Assembly: GCA_905181885.1 (NCBI GenBank) | Contig: CAJIZI010000003.1 | Coordinates: 310,001 to 374,000, forward strand | From: an uncultured Gammaproteobacteria bacterium | GTDB lineage: Bacteria > Pseudomonadota > Gammaproteobacteria > Nitrosococcales > Methylophagaceae | Direction: 5' to 3' | DNA length: 64,000 bases | Shown here: piece after piece, positions 23,015-61,084 of the stretch | Numbering within the stretch: position 1 is the first letter of the stretch | How the letters are laid out: each line of letters starts with the position of its first letter | Position numbers and translations under genes: made by a program | Notes under the pieces: generated by a model | The model's database searches: none | What the model was told of the DNA's origin: nothing | What the model saw: only the letters and a program-made list of their open reading frames with translations

Positions 23015-23094
23015 TAATTGGTCCACCCCTATGATTAATTTAACTATTAACTCTAGTGCTAAAAAGCCAAATATATTTAGTTTTGCCCGACTCC

Positions 23095-24735
23095 TTAGCG
23101 CTTGGTCAACTGTCTAATCAAATTAATTAAGCTTGTTGTTGAACTGTCATGACCAGATATGTCAGCGTCTTTTTGTAGCTCAGGCACAATAGCCTTTGCT
23201 AGTTGTTTTCCCAGTTCAACCCCCCACTGATCAAAAGAGTTAATATTCCATATTGCGCCTTGAACAAATACCTTATGTTCATATAAGGCAACCAGCTGCC
23301 CCAACATTTCAGGCGTTAATTTCGGAAATATAAGTGTGTTACTGGGCCTGTTTCCTGGGAATATCTTGTGCGGCTGTAAAGCCTCTAACGCCTCGCCTTC
23401 ATAACCTTCATTAACTAATTCAGTGCGAACTTCTTCAGCAGATTTCCCCTTCATTAGAGCCTCTGATTGAGCCAAGCCATTTGCAAGCAAAATAGATTGA
23501 TGATCACATTCAGGGTAGTGACTGTTAACTGGCAGGACAAAATCAACTGGGATGAGTTGAGTCCCTTGATGAATTAGTTGAAAGTAAGCATGCTGACCAT
23601 TTGTTCCGGGCGTACCCCATATAACGGGGCCTGTACTATAGCTTATACGCTGCCCTTGCCTATTGGTAAGCTTTCCATTACTTTCCATATCCAATTGCTG
23701 CATATGACTGGGAAAACGCGTTAGGGAGTGATCATAAGGAACAATTGCATGGGTTTGTGAACCAAAGAAATTAACATACCAAACTCCTAACAAACCCATA
23801 ATTACCGGCATATTGTTTTCGAATGGTTGTTTTCTAAAATGATTGTCCATTTCATGACCACCATCCAGTAGTCTCTCAAAACTCTCCATCCCTACATATA
23901 ATGCAATAGGTAAACCTATCGCGCTCCATAGAGAGTAACGGCCACCTACCCAATCCCATATCTCAAACATATTATCAGTATTGATACCAAACTTTGCTAC
24001 TGCATCAGCATTGGTAGAGACTGCAACAAAATGTTTTGCAATATCCTCCACCCCCCCAGCTCGCAGGAACCAAGCTCTTGCTGACTGTGCATTAGTCAAG
24101 GTTTCTTGAGTAGTGAAAGTTTTGGATGCTACGATAAAAAGTGTTGTCTCTGGGCTTAGTTTTTCAAGGGTTGTACTTAAGTCTGTGCCATCGACATTTG
24201 AAACAAAATGAACATTCATACCGGCTATCGCATAAGGTTCTAATGCTTCGCATATCATTGCAGGCCCCAGATCAGAACCTCCTATACCAATATTGACAAC
24301 ATCACTAATACGCTTGTCTGTATAACCCAACCATTTACCTTGATGAACTTGATCACAAAACTGCTTCATTTGGGCCAACACAGCATTAACGGCTGGCATG
24401 ACATCCTTACCATCAACTTTAATTGGTCTATTACTACGGTTACGCAGGGCGATGTGTGAAACAGCACGTCCTTCTGTTGTGTTGATTGATTCGCCCGTAT
24501 ACATTCGTTCTATCCAGTCGGATAAACCTAATGATTTTGCCAAAGCAATTAATTTTTCTATAGTTTCCTTTGTGATGCGGTTTTTTGAGTAATCCAGCAA
24601 GAGTTCGCCACTATTTAGTGAAAACCTCTCAAAACGACCTGAGTCTAGAGCAAACTCATCTCGCATGGAGACATATTTGAGGTCCGTGTAATGTCGGTCT
24701 AAAGATTGCCATTCAGGTGTATTCAAAGGGGTCAT
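23095..24735 (-). CDS. pgi: Glucose-6-phosphate isomerase
   Basis: Interconverts glucose-6-phosphate and fructose-6-phosphate. [11 protein letters not shown], the signature [17 protein letters not shown] and the C-terminal [18 protein letters not shown] are intact. 546 residues, close to the E. coli length. It lies between hisS (16 bases upstream) and gcvH and is probably in the same transcript as hisS. Confidence 0.96.
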
Positions 24736-45876: not shown

Positions 45877-46751
45877 TAACGATTAGCCATTGCAGCCAGC
45901 ATAGTCTCACCCATTTCAGCAGGTGAGTTAGCTATCTTTACTCCAGCCGCTTTTAAAGCTATTAGTTTTGCTTCTGCAGTACCCATACCACCACTAATAA
46001 TTGCACCAGCATGTCCCATTCTTTTACCTGGTGGCGCTGTTAAACCAGCAATATAAGCGACGACTGGCTTTGTCACATACCCTTGAATGTATGCTGCAGC
46101 ATCTTCTTCTGCTTCGCCACCAATTTCTCCCACCATTACAATACCTTCCGTTTGTGGATCAGCTTCAAACAACGCTAAACAATCAATGAAGTTCATGCCA
46201 TGAATTGGATCTCCACCTATTCCTACACATGTACTCTGACCTAAGCCATTTTTGGTGGTTTGATCCACAGCCTCATAAGTCAATGTACCTGAGCGAGAAA
46301 CAATGCCAATTTTTCCAGCTAAATGAATATCCCCTGGCATAATACCAATTTTGCATTCACCAGGCGTTATTAAACCTGGGCAATTTGGCCCTATGAGAAT
46401 AGCGCCATATTGTTTTAGAGCATGCTTCACTCGCAACATATCCTGAACGGGAATTCCTTCAGTAATGCAGGCAATAATTTTAATACCCGCATCTGCCGCT
46501 TCTAATATAGCATCGGCCGCAAAAGCCGCGGGTACATAAATCATAGTCGCATCAGCACCAGTTTCCAAAACCGCATCATAAACAGTATTGAATACAGGTA
46601 GTTCCAAATGCCTTTGCCCTCCTTTGCCTGGTGTAACACCACCAACAAGCACGGTACCATAAGCAATTGCTTGTTCAGAATGAAACGTGCCTTGTTTGCC
46701 TGTAAACCCTTGGCAAATAACTTTAGTTTTGCTATTTATTAAAATGCTCAC
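45876..46751 (-). CDS. sucD: Succinyl-CoA synthetase, alpha subunit
   Basis: Alpha subunit of the ADP-forming enzyme that makes ATP from succinyl-CoA. CoA-binding [12 protein letters not shown] near the N-terminus and the phospho-histidine H247 in [15 protein letters not shown]. 291 residues. The start is GTG, sharing a base with the sucC stop. A malate-CoA ligase (MtkB) is a close relative; full-length similarity to E. coli SucD and lack of serine-cycle neighbours favour SucD. Confidence 0.9.
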
Positions 46752-47920
46752 TACTTCGCCTCCTTGGCAGCAAACACCGCTTGTCTTGCAGCATCAGTTA
46801 AATTATCCGCTACCCTGATCGTCATCAGACTATTAGTTAATAACTCTCGACCCAATTCGGCATTTGTACCTTCAAGCCTTACAATAACTGGTAAGGATAA
46901 ACCTATTTCTTTTGCAGCTTGTATAATTCCTTCAGCAATTAGATCACAACGAACAATGCCTCCAAAAATATTCACCAAAATTGATTTCACTTTGGTATCA
47001 GACATAATCAATTTAAAGGCATGAGCAACGCGCTCAGCTGTAGTCCCTCCACCAACATCTAAGAAGTTAGCTGGCTGCCCTCCTTCTTGCTTGATTAAAT
47101 CCATGGTAGCCATCGCTAAACCGGCTCCATTGACCATGCAGGCTACCTCACCATCCAATGATATATAATTTAGGCCATGTTGCTGTGCAACTACTTCAGC
47201 TTCATCTTCTTGTGCAGGGTCAAACATTGCAGCCAACTCAGAATGTCTAAAAACCCCATTGTCATCTAAATTTAGTTTTGCATCTACAGCTAATAATTCA
47301 TTTTTATCAGTGACTACTAGTGGGTTAATTTCCACTAAGTGGACATCATTATCGATAAATAATTGGTAAAGGCCTTGCATGACATGTTGTAATTGCTTGA
47401 ATGCCTCACCTTGAAGATCTAGAAAGAACCCAGCCCTTCGACACTGATAAGTTTGCAGTCCTACGATTGGGTCTATAAATAAGTTTAATATTGCTTCAGG
47501 ATCTTTTGATGCAACTAACTCAATGTCCATTCCACCTTGTGCGGAAACCATACACACTATTCGTTGACTGATACGATCTACTAAAATCGCTATGTATAGT
47601 TCTCGCTGAATACTAGATGGCTGCTCTACTAGAACTTGGTTAATTGGTAATCCGTGTTTAAGAGTTTGATGAGTCACTAATCGGCGACCTAATAAGTCAT
47701 AAGCTGCATCAGCCACGCCATCAAGCGTATCAATAATTCTGACTCCTCCAGCTTTGCCACGTCCGCCACTATGTACTTGGGCTTTCACTACCCAGAGTTT
47801 CCCCCCAAGTTGTTCTGCAGCTTGCCTAGCTTGTGAACCACTAGTAACAACTTGTCCCTCTGGTGTAGGAATCCCATAACGAGAAAACAATTGTTTAGCT
47901 TGAAACTCATGCAGGTTCAT
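46751..47920 (-). CDS. sucC: Succinyl-CoA synthetase, beta subunit
   Basis: ATP-grasp beta subunit. N-terminal [20 protein letters not shown], grasp lysine region [17 protein letters not shown], and C-terminal [20 protein letters not shown] and [10 protein letters not shown] match E. coli SucC closely over 389 residues. The pair is separated from sucAB/lpd, unlike E. coli. It is the first gene of a four-gene operon; a 919-base spacer lies upstream. Confidence 0.92.
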
Positions 47921-48382
47921 ATATTGGATTTACCTTCTATCGTTCTTGTATTGTTATGAAAATAATATATTAAGTAGCTATTTTCTCGCAATCATCAATT
48001 AATTACCATCTATAGTCATAGATATAGTTCAAACCAGACTATCAATAAAAAAATAAATCAGCTCGATCATGTCAGAAAGTTATCGATTACTTTGTTTTTA
48101 TACGAAGTTTAACCTTAATTCAATGGACTTCACTGAAAGAAGTTTTTCTTATCATGCACTAACATAACAAACCAACTTTAAGATAGTATAAAGGTTATTC
48201 ATCATATCTAGTTCAATGCCTAATTTAGGCTCGTAACTCTCATCTTTTGGAAATAGATAAGCACTATAATTAATAAATATTTGGCCTGATAGCCAAACAA
48301 AAAATATTATATTTAGCAAAAATGTAACCTAAGCTACAAATTTCTTGCTGAATTTTCTCATCTTATCAAAAAGTAACTCAAA
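47921..48382. other. Spacer upstream of sucC, with a doubtful small ORF
   Basis: AT-rich, with stops in all frames for most of its length. It must hold the promoter of the sucCD-nadE-glnB operon, although I cannot point to clear boxes. A TTG-started minus-strand frame lies at 48152-48319 (see the separate entry). The rest shows no recognisable gene. Confidence 0.4.
48152..48319 (-). CDS. Possible 55-residue small protein or gene remnant
   Basis: A TTG-started frame with AGG 8 bases ahead. The product begins with a hydrophobic stretch (MLNIIFFVWLSGQIFINYSAYL) of about 22 residues, shown here in two pieces MLNIIFFVWL and SGQIFINYSA, then a charged PKDESYEPKLGIELDMM and a hydrophobic end. It looks protein-like, but a frame of this size can occur by chance in such AT-rich DNA. 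It may be the end of a decayed gene, like the dtd remnant beside it. I do not recognise a family. Confidence 0.25.
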   Translation of the reverse strand: MLNIIFFVWLSGQIFINYSAYLFPKDESYEPKLGIELDMMNNLYTILKLVCYVSA

Positions 48383-48765
48383 TTAATTGCTTTATTACAG
48401 CGTGTTAGAAAGGCTACTGTTGAGGTTTAACAGCATGTGATTGCATGAATAAATCAGGGGTTGTCGGTTTTTATAGACATTTAAGTCAATGATACAACAA
48501 TGCTGATCGAATATTACAGCGACTACTGTCTTATAGGATTTACGACGACTCAAATGAAAAATTGAATTTATCCCTGAAAGATACCAAGTGATGTTTATTA
48601 CTAGTTTCTCAATTTACGTTAGCAGCTGATACAAGAAATCGTTTGAGACCTAGTTTGTATTGCGCAGTGGAGCCTAACAGCAAAACAGTTATTTCACCAC
48701 ATATGCAGGGAGCATAAACACCATCATTTATAACTTGGGCAGTTTGGTAGCAATATGGAGCTTTT
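48383..48765 (+). pseudogene. dtd: Decayed D-aminoacyl-tRNA deacylase gene
   Basis: Translated segments in three frames match Dtd in order. Frame 1 (from 48386): IALLQRVRKATVEV, then stop, INQGLSVFIDI. Frame 2 (from 48493): NADRILQRLLSYRIYDDSNE, KLNLSLKDTK, stop, then CLLLVSQFTLAADTRNRLRPS, which contains the Dtd active-site signature SQFTLAAD. Frame 3: a degraded NLGSLVAIW where intact proteins have NDGPVTFW. At least two frameshifts, several stop codons, no good start codon, and an apparent loss of about 14 residues before the end. The gene cannot make active Dtd. Converges with the Mth938-domain gene. Confidence 0.85.
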
Positions 48766-48839
48766 TTATTACCGGTTGACCACATATCTCGGTTAAAAAA
48801 TACTTGGGAAAATAAGATTAGCTAAAATTACTGTCTTCA

Positions 48840-49226
48840 CTATTCAAAGTTAATGACTAAAGCGACTCTTCTGCCCTCAGAAATGAGTAAGTTGTATGTC
48901 CTACAGGCCGAGCCTATAGGCATTTGTTCTACACCAATAGCTTGTTCTGAAAATTTGACTAGTATAGGTCCCGGAAGCCTGGTTACTTTTGGCTGCCCAA
49001 TAATTAGTACCTCGATATCAAGTGATTTAAAGTAATCAGCATCATCAGTATTAAAATCTAGAACCACATTAATTGGATAGACTGTAACTAATCGATCGAT
49101 ACTCAGTATAAATGGTGTTGTCATCGTTGTTGACTCTGACTTATCAGCAGATTGTATAACAACAGATTTCTTGTCATAAGACTTAATGCTATGAGAATCA
49201 GTCATATCTTCTTGACTAAACTTCAC
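48840..49226 (-). CDS. Mth938-like domain protein (DUF498/COG3737)
   Basis: 128-residue protein whose C-terminal ~90 residues match the Mth938/NDUFAF3-like fold: IEVLIIGQPK, then GVEQMPIGSACRTYNLLISEGRRVA, a hallmark of this family. The first ~35 residues are polar and probably flexible. The start GTG at 49224-49226 has GAGAG six bases ahead. It follows ihfB by 12 bases. Function in bacteria is unknown; the mitochondrial relative assists complex I assembly. Confidence 0.82.
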   Translation of the reverse strand: MKFSQEDMTDSHSIKSYDKKSVVIQSADKSESTTMTTPFILSIDRLVTVYPINVVLDFNTDDADYFKSLDIEVLIIGQPKVTRLPGPILVKFSEQAIGVEQMPIGSACRTYNLLISEGRRVALVINFE

Positions 49227-49238
49227 TCTTGACTCTCA

Positions 49239-49529
49239 TTAAAACCCAGCAGCGTTATTTACCCTATCACGTAATTCTTTACCGGGTTTGAAGTGTGGTA
49301 CATGTTTATCTTCAAGTGTTACGGACTCACCACTTTTAGGATTCCTTCCAATTCGTGCAGGTCTATGGTGAAGTGTAAAGCTACCAAAACCACGAATTTC
49401 GATACGTTCTCCACTCGCCAAGTTTTCACTCATTTGTTCAAGAATTAATTTTACTGCTAACTCAACATCACGATAATTTAATAGTGATTGCCTGTCTGAC
49501 AGTATTTCGATTAAATCAGATTTAGTCAT
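49239..49529 (-). CDS. ihfB: Integration host factor, beta subunit
   Basis: DNA-bending protein of the HU/IHF family. [13 protein letters not shown] at the N-terminus, [21 protein letters not shown] carrying the beta-arm with the intercalating proline, and [14 protein letters not shown]. 96 residues. Position directly downstream of rpsA identifies it as the beta rather than the alpha subunit. Confidence 0.95.
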
Positions 49530-49665: not shown

Positions 49666-51336
49666 CTATTTTTGATCCATTTGCTCTTTTAGCAAATCAC
49701 CTAATGTTGTGTTACTACCATTAGATGCACTCGAATACTCTTTCACCGCTTCTGTTTCATCTTGTGAATCTTTGGCCTTAATAGACAAGGTCAGTGTGCG
49801 ATCTTTTCGAGATGTACCCGTGAATTTCGCCTCAATCTCATCACCTACTGATAGAACTTTACTCGCGTCATCAGTGCGTTCACGTGAAATATCTGCAGCT
49901 CGAATGTAACCATCAACACCCTCCGCTAGCTCAATTGTAGCACCACGTGCATCCACTTCAGTCACTTTACCCGTAACTACAGTTCCGCGTGGATTTTGTG
50001 ACATATACTCAGAGAACGGATCGTCTTGTAATTGTTTAACACCCAATGAAATACGTTCACGTTCAGGATCAATTGCTAATACAATAGCTTCTAACTCATC
50101 ACCTTTCTTAAAGTCACGAACAACCTCTTCATTTTCATCTTCCCAAGTAATATCTGAAAGGTGAATCAGGCCATCTATACCCCCGTCTAGACCAATAAAT
50201 ATTCCGAAATCAGTGATAGATTTAATAGAACCAGAAACCTTATCACCCTTGTTATGAGTCATTGAAAACTCTTCCCAAGGATTAGATTGGCACTGTTTCA
50301 TTCCTAATGAAATTCGTCGACGATCGGCATCAATATCTAAAACCATTACACCGACTTCGTCACCAAGCTGTACTAATTTTGATGGATGAACATTTTTATT
50401 GGTCCAATCCATTTCAGACATGTGAACTAGACCTTCAACACCATCTTCAATTTCCACGAAACAACCATAGTCTGCAATATTAGTGACTTTACCTTGAATA
50501 CGACTGCTATTTGGATAGCGATTTGCAATATCTTTCCACGGATCATCGCCCATTTGTTTAAGGCCTAATGATACTCGTTCACGCTCTTTATCAAATTTTA
50601 ATACTTGTACTTCTATTTCGTCGCCAATAGCAACTACCTCAGACGGATGTTTTACACGTTTCCATGCCATGTCTGTAATATGTAATAGACCATCAATACC
50701 GCCAAGATCTACGAAAGCACCATAATCTGTTAGGTTTTTAACTACACCTTTAACATTTTTACCTTCTTCTAATTCTTCTAGAAGGGCATCTCGTTCAACA
50801 CTGTTTTCAGCTTCCATAATTGCGCGACGAGAAACAACGATATTATTACGAGGACGATCTAATTTGATCAGTTTGAACTCAAGTTCTTTGCCTTCCAAAT
50901 GCGTTGTATCACGAATTGGACGAACATCTACCAAGGAACCGGGCAAAAATGCACGTACGTTTTCAAGCTCCACAGTAAAACCACCTTTTACTTTACCGGT
51001 CATAACACCGATTACAGTCTCATTGGCTTCAAAAGCATGCTCAAGCTTGATCCATGCCTCAGCTGCTTTGGCTTTTTCGCGTGATAATTGTGTCGCACCG
51101 AAACCATCTTCTAATGTTTCTAATGCTACATCAACGATATCACCAACTACAACAGTGACCTCACCTTTTTCATTTTGAAATTCTTCGGCAGGAATGGCAC
51201 CCTCTGATTTTAAACCAGCATTGACCATAACCACATCGGAACTAACACTTACTACCATGCCAGATACGATCTTACCCGTTTGCATTGGTGTGGAATTTAG
51301 ACTCTCTTCAAAGAGTTCAGCAAAGCTTTCGCTCAT
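49666..51336 (-). CDS. rpsA: 30S ribosomal protein S1
   Basis: mRNA-binding ribosomal protein with six S1 repeats; repeats 3-6 show clear signatures such as [27 protein letters not shown] and [17 protein letters not shown] (in part). 556 residues matches E. coli. AAGGG lies eight bases before the ATG. It follows cmk and precedes ihfB, the classic cmk-rpsA-ihfB arrangement. Small hairpins lie in its leader. Confidence 0.97.
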
Positions 51337-58947: not shown

Positions 58948-60522
58948 TTATGTATGTTCCCGAGTCGACTTAAACTCAATATCTGGCCATCGTTCCATAG
59001 TCAAATCAAGGTTCACTCTTGTAGTGGCAATGTAAGTAAGTCCTCCAGCTCCATCTAGTGCTAGGTTTTGTGAAGCTTTTTTCTTGAATTCCTCGAGTAC
59101 CTTGTCATCCTCGCAATAAACCCAGCGCGCAGTGTGTACTTGTACCGCCTCGTAAACACAATCAACATTGTATTCTCCTCTAAGTCGATGAACCACCACA
59201 TCAAACTGCAGCACACCGATAGCACCTAAAATTAAGTCATTATTATCTAAGGGCCTAAATAACTGAGTAGCACCTTCTTCACTCAATTGTTGCAGACCTT
59301 TTGATAACGCTTTCATTTTCAGAGGATCTTTTAAACGAACTCGTCTAAATAGTTCAGGGGCAAAGTATGGAATGCCAGTAAATTGTATATCTTCACCTTC
59401 TGTGAAGGTATCACCAATCTGGATTGTACCGTGATTATGTAAACCCAAAATATCACCCGGCCAAGCTTCTTGTGCCTGCTCACGTTCGGCCGCCATGAAA
59501 GTCACGGCATTAGCAATAGTTATATCTTTCCCTACCCGTGTTTGGCGTAACTTCATACCTTTCATATATTGACCAGAACAGACGCGAAGAAATGCTATTC
59601 TATCTCTATGTTTAGGATCCATATTGGCTTGTATTTTAAAAACAAAGCCACTAAAAGCCTCCTCCTTTGCTTCTACCACGCGAGTTTTAGTTTCTCGAGA
59701 TTGTGGCTTAGGAGCATAGTTGATAAAAGAATCCATTAGCTCAGTAATACCAAAGTTATTCATGGCACTACCAAAAAATGTAGGGGATAACTCTCCCGCT
59801 AAAAACTTATCCAAATCAAATTCATAGCTAGCCCCCCTTACGAGCTCAATCTCTTCTCGGAACTCTTCGACTAAATCACCAAAGAGTTCATCAAGACGGG
59901 GGTTGTCTAGTCCTTCTACTATTTCACCAACTTCACTACTGTGTGGCTCAAAAATATGTACGCTATCATTTAGTAGGTGAAAAATACCTTTGAAGTTTTT
60001 GCCCATACCAATAGGCCAAGTAATTGGTGCACATTGAATATTCAGTATTTTTTCGATCTCATCCAACACATCGATTGGGTCACGCCCCTCTCTATCTAGC
60101 TTGTTGATGAAGGTTAAAATTGGAGTATCTCGAAGGCGACATACTTCCATTAATTTAATGGTACGTTGCTCGACACCTTTGGCGCTATCTATTACCATCA
60201 AAGCAGAGTCTACTGCTGTTAACGTTCGATATGTATCTTCGGAAAAGTCTGCATGTCCGGGAGTATCAAGTAAATTTACAACTCGCTCTTTGTAATTAAA
60301 CTGCATCACAGAGGACGTTACGGATATCCCCCGTTCTTTCTCCATTTCCATCCAATCAGATGTCGCATGACGATCGGATTTACGTGATTTAACGGTACCT
60401 GCAACTTGGATCGCACCACCAAATAACAATAACTTTTCAGTGATTGTTGTTTTACCTGCGTCTGGATGCGAAATGATCGCAAACGTACGCCGTTTGTTCA
60501 ATTCTGTCTGTAAGTTAGCCAT
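58948..60522 (-). CDS. prfC: Peptide chain release factor 3
   Basis: GTPase that recycles RF1/RF2 after termination. G1 SHPDAGKTT (18-26), G2 [11 protein letters not shown]3 [15 protein letters not shown]4 NKLDREGRD. 524 residues, normal. Single-gene unit between ileS and the DUF2909 gene. The flanking spacers contain no recognisable genes. Confidence 0.96.
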
Positions 60523-60808
60523 TCGAAAAATGTATTATGGAAAATGTTCTATTCTACATGACTAACATTTGTTCAGTGATAAATTTAAGGACTACAAGCA
60601 CTTGAACTAGAGACAAAAGAGAATATTTAAGTGCCCTTATTAACATTCATTAATACTTTACTCTAGTGCGTTATTAAAATACGTTTCCACCAACACAATT
60701 AGCTTGTTAGATTACTCAAACTAGTTATTAAACTTAGAAAATTAGACAACGTTAATTAAAGTTATTGATTTTTAAGCACCAGTAAAATATTTAGAGTCTT
60801 TATTTTCT

Positions 60809-61084
60809 CTACCCATCTTCCTTTAGACTTTTTTCTTCTTGGTTTTGCTCAATTGAAGGTGCTAATCTCGGATCTTGATAAGGTCCATGTAATTCTATCC
60901 AACCGGCATAATTTGCAACCACTATAAAACCAATCAAAATGGCAGAGAAAGTCACTCGTAGCATTAAAAAATTAGCAACACCCTCGCCTTGCTTTGGTCC
61001 TTTTAGCGTCACCATGAAGTATAAGGCTCTAAACAGACAAAACAGTACGATCAAGCCTAGACCTATAATTATTGCATTTACCAA
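60809..61084 (-). CDS. DUF2909 twin-transmembrane protein
   Basis: About 91 residues with two membrane helices (approximately 3-25 and 43-64 from the chosen start) and the pattern ALYFMVTLKG...RVTFSAILIGFIVVANYAG typical of DUF2909. I choose TTG 61082-61084 (MVNAIIIGLG) because AGAGG lies seven bases ahead; an ATG at 61138 would add 18 polar residues. The last ~20 residues are charged. In other bacteria the family sits near cytochrome oxidase genes; here it is between prfC and pnp, so context gives no help. Confidence 0.7.
   Translation of the reverse strand: MVNAIIIGLGLIVLFCLFRALYFMVTLKGPKQGEGVANFLMLRVTFSAILIGFIVVANYAGWIELHGPYQDPRLAPSIEQNQEEKSLKEDG

Follow-up and report, generated by a model that had tools for sequence, protein, structure and literature searches.

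In the window (the whole stretch of 64,000 nucleotides that was analysed), two intact genes of the minus strand, sucC (46751-47920) and a gene for a DUF498 protein (PF04430; 48840-49226), are separated by 919 bases that hold the relic of a dtd gene, encoding D-aminoacyl-tRNA deacylase, on the plus strand (48383-48763). The left flank, sucC, stands in the same order as in the relatives. Upstream of it lies a conserved stretch (47978-48031), located in the relatives between the divergent genes sucC and pip; near this position, 12 of 28 congeners show DNA matches of 75-88%. It is followed by a non-coding stretch (48032-48382) at the position of the relatives' pip, without a recognisable pip relic. 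Past the dtd relic, a scar (48764-48839) marks the place where relatives carry the cco (cbb3 oxidase) cluster, a sensor-kinase gene or both, and past the DUF498 gene follow an intact ihfB-like gene (49239-49529) and an intact rpsA (49666-51336), both on the minus strand. We take the names of pip, ihfB, rpsA and sucC from sequence and place, and those of the sensor kinase and some cco genes are likewise presumptive, being assigned in part by position. No RNA family was found in 47900-48900 up to an E-value of 1, and no relative of SucC was found in viral contigs.

The assignment of the relic rests on a frameshift-aware translated alignment of 48300-48850, which returned 48383-48763 for all eight intact Dtd proteins compared, with scores of 218-265; none of 20 shuffled versions of this DNA scored above 33. 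A Dtd remnant at 48383-48765, as read by the earlier note from the letters of the DNA, is thus borne out. The relic covers residues 1 to 131 or 132 of the approximately 146-residue proteins of the relatives, at 46-56% identity (56-67 identical residues in 120-121 aligned codons). Moreover, the Pfam profile PF02580 (Tyr_Deacylase) matches the two main pieces with E-values of 6.6e-13 and 4.2e-6 (49.2 and 27.2 bits, the curated cut-off being 25 bits), and in a search of the 1.50-Mb genome it matches nothing else, so that a second Dtd is absent. Both the profile scores and the chromosomal place, which is that of the orthologs, identify the relic as dtd by ancestry.

The stops and frameshifts seen by the earlier note are present as five in-frame stops and two frame changes. 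Its description of pieces in three consecutive frames was right as to the three pieces; according to the six-frame translation they occupy only two reading frames, both of the plus strand. The start codon is missing at the start position of the relatives. At the other end, where we presume the Gly-cisPro motif of Dtd to sit, the C-terminal NDGP (Gly-Pro) segment has been lost, since the alignment ends at about residue 131 and the following DNA contains no such segment. The middle piece retains much of the core and the sequence SQFTLAADT, including the previously noticed SQFTLAAD; its SQFTL agrees with SQxTL, which we take to be a Dtd motif, and intact dtd copies of the genus have PQFTL at this point. 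The relic thus offers no single open frame with a start codon, nor the Gly-cisPro motif that is given as a feature of Dtd in the available part of one report (PMC4880308).

We consider it very probable that 48383-48763 is a non-functional dtd pseudogene and the product of ordinary decay within a general genome reduction. An intact gene garbled by faulty assembly or sequencing might be suspected, as the genome is known from a single assembly of three contigs, but about nine lesions fall within 390 bases, and the surrounding sucC, sucD, nadE, ihfB, rpsA, cmk and aroA are all open. Since these flanking genes are open, the lesions do not reflect sequence error, and an artefact of this kind is hardly conceivable. 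A gene that still works through recoding or as split pieces has an equally negligible chance, in spite of the SQFTLAADT sequence and the core preserved in the middle piece: start codon and Gly-Pro segment are gone, every piece has stops, and translation table 11 serves normally for the genes on either side.

In most of the close relatives an intact dtd is present at this locus, divergent from sucC and mostly after pip. The two genes adjoin, with or without pip between them, in ten of the eleven dtd-bearing loci, the eleventh (G016) being cut after pip, and likewise in 17 of 20 shorter loci; one genome (G011) has dtd without pip. Past dtd the relatives have, in several cases, a sensor-kinase gene, followed by the cco cluster, the DUF498 gene, ihfB and rpsA. 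Eight genomes (G003, G009, G012, G013, G016, G017, G021 and G025) carry an intact pip-dtd pair in the same place and orientation, with about half of the residues shared with the relic. In contrast to this pair, the copy in the window is broken and pip is gone; the sensor-kinase gene and the cco cluster are absent as well. The comparison of the locus proposed by the earlier note shows intact dtd in relatives; in the sister genome (G022), two contigs (C29 and C57) break off to the left and right of this region. A relic of pip was looked for in 47921-48383 with 14 pip N-termini (14 open reading frame records from 11 genomes), none of which gave forward scores above the shuffles. One pip C-terminus with a score of 39 was too weak, since 1 of 30 shuffles reached it, and a score of 61 against the pip of G016 stemmed mainly from an over-long reading frame that extends into the conserved upstream region. 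No relic of the gene of 201-226 amino acids that follows dtd in some relatives was found in 48701-49300.

The losses at this locus are not isolated. The genome (G000) has 1,504,707 bases in three contigs, is rated 99.73% complete and is the smallest among the genomes of the genus with a completeness of 90% or more. G013 has a block collinear with the window (C16:230533-309803), which measures 79 kb there and 56 kb here. Of the 64 open reading frames of that block (at least 90 amino acids), 47 are matched in the window in order and one, dtd, is the relic, which makes it the one lost gene of the block still seen as a relic; 16 are unmatched, a few of them being short frames that may not be genes. 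Eight of the 16 were compared with Pfam and proved to be photolyase, an exonuclease with a GIY-YIG domain, ccoN, ccoP, ccoI, pip, GlgB and 4-alpha-glucanotransferase. Along the window, the cco cluster of the relatives is missing at 48764-48839 (compared with L139, L141, L142 and L143), a four-frame block of G013 with GlgB and 4-alpha-glucanotransferase at 23024-23097 (L156, L157), and the G013 genes for photolyase and exonuclease/GIY-YIG at about 60505-60826 (L154:3613-6824). A 202-residue protein at 33629-34237 matches a 387-residue one (G013:C16:275718-276881) several times, a pattern suggestive of lost repeat units.

CcoO, the one product of the missing genes that was sought genome-wide, was present in four of seven genomes and was found in none of G000, G012 and G022. 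G012 lacks the cco cluster and has retained dtd. A five-protein tree pairs G000 with G022 as its sister (support 100) and groups G012 with G003 (94) and G013 (98); because of these positions, the loss of cco in G012 looks separate from that in the G000 lineage, G022 being an incomplete genome. The suggestion that the genome is shrinking is thus supported by its size, the missing collinear reading frames and the loss of CcoO. Indeed, genomes without a working dtd (n = 8, G000 included) are smaller than those with one (n = 35; Mann-Whitney P 0.0004), in a statistic that ignores kinship, uses rounded sizes and covers 43 good genomes, 16 of 59 having been left out as less than 90% complete or more than 5% contaminated. 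Genome size is only a proxy, as dtd is kept in G009, G011 and G013 (1.7-1.9 Mb).

For the timing of the loss, we compared codon positions, taking the mean of the differences at positions 1 and 2 over those at position 3. The relic gave ratios of 0.53-0.61 against six of the available intact dtd genes, over 126 codons with stop codons included and frame-change codons left out. The 15 pairs of intact dtd genes gave 0.27-0.58 and three sucC pairs 0.20-0.21; the relic's range overlaps with that of the intact dtd pairs, so that any dating from these sequences is rough. Third positions still differ most, so most of the divergence goes back to the time when the gene was functional, and its loss is younger than the split from the compared dtd-bearing congeners. 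The recent loss claimed by the earlier note holds in that sense; with about nine lesions, "recent" applies only loosely. The decay is seen in a single assembly of the species; the sister genome (G022) is 95% identical to it in DNA along 1245 bases of the rpsA-cmk region.

The ancestor would accordingly have had an intact dtd divergent from sucC, probably after pip, as mostly found in the relatives. Selection on dtd probably lapsed in the G000 lineage. The gene accumulated stops and frame changes and suffered a terminal deletion, and pip, the sensor-kinase gene and the cco cluster were removed as part of the general reduction. We infer that relaxed selection and deletion bias, rather than a benefit from the loss of Dtd, were the driver.

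It is very unlikely that the loss was permitted by another D-aminoacyl-tRNA deacylase that took over, as the earlier note had suggested. The editing domains of AlaRS and ThrRS are present, and AlaRS keeps the motifs HxxxH and CxxxH, to which we ascribe a role in editing; this is the one exception to an otherwise negative picture. The genome has no match to the DTD2 profile (PF04414) and no second Dtd. Two SAD-domain proteins were found in it, as in each of five compared genomes, and in all six their open frames have the lengths of ThrRS and AlaRS, so that there is no free-standing AlaX. The TatD family, which includes the cyanobacterial DTD3, is represented by two proteins, as in each of five congeners, without an extra gene. 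The AlaRS is 81% identical to that of the dtd-bearing G013, with the editing motifs kept in both. In the available part of one study, E. coli cells lacking dtd showed no glycine toxicity as long as their AlaRS was normal (PMC5409826). By analogy, the AlaRS editing domain may suffice to hold Gly-tRNA(Ala) in check. Since no replacement deacylase was found, the cell probably gets by with reduced proofreading.

The statement that Dtd is conserved in most bacteria needs tempering. The class sample includes 229 good genomes, of which 169 have a Dtd match and 60 have none (61 genomes without a match in the whole sample). In the family, a match was found in 53 of 57 genomes, the relic counted; G005 (73% complete) and G022 (84%) are too incomplete for an absence to count, and G029 is the only one without a match among the 36 good genomes. 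The split dtd of G031 does not count as a lesion, as it results from 377 consecutive or near-consecutive positions given as N within the reading frame. According to the accessible portion of PMC4014445, Dtd orthologs occur in nearly all bacteria, and among Mollicutes only Acholeplasma laidlawii has a homolog. As in that case, Dtd is absent here from a lineage with a reduced genome; unlike there, a relic can still be read, and the host is a gammaproteobacterium. The absences in the class sample and in Mollicutes make dtd loss a known, repeated event, and as one of many genes lost from a small genome the present case is real but ordinary.

A more specific reading would be that this family, which is probably methylotrophic, tolerates the loss of Dtd time and again, its main D-aminoacyl-tRNA load being turned into formaldehyde adducts, which are reported to be removed only by archaeal-type DTD2 (PMC10942605). 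As bacterial-type Dtd would be unable to clear them, it would buy little there. Most of the family keeps dtd, which counts against this, and we regard it as very unlikely. The locus remains a clean example of decay in progress in a translation-proofreading gene that the closest relatives keep intact. It is useful for comparisons of the amount of proofreading that is dispensable to a small genome, and leaves current views unchanged.

The loss in G029 (1.1 Mb, same family, rated complete) is separate from that in G000. There, an intact pip and the gene after it are separated by 156 bases (L144:3554-3709) from which dtd is cleanly absent, with no recognisable relic, unlike in the case described here. 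In the same genome, a TatD-family gene lies in two adjoining pieces (C23:188728-189481), perhaps owing to a frameshift.
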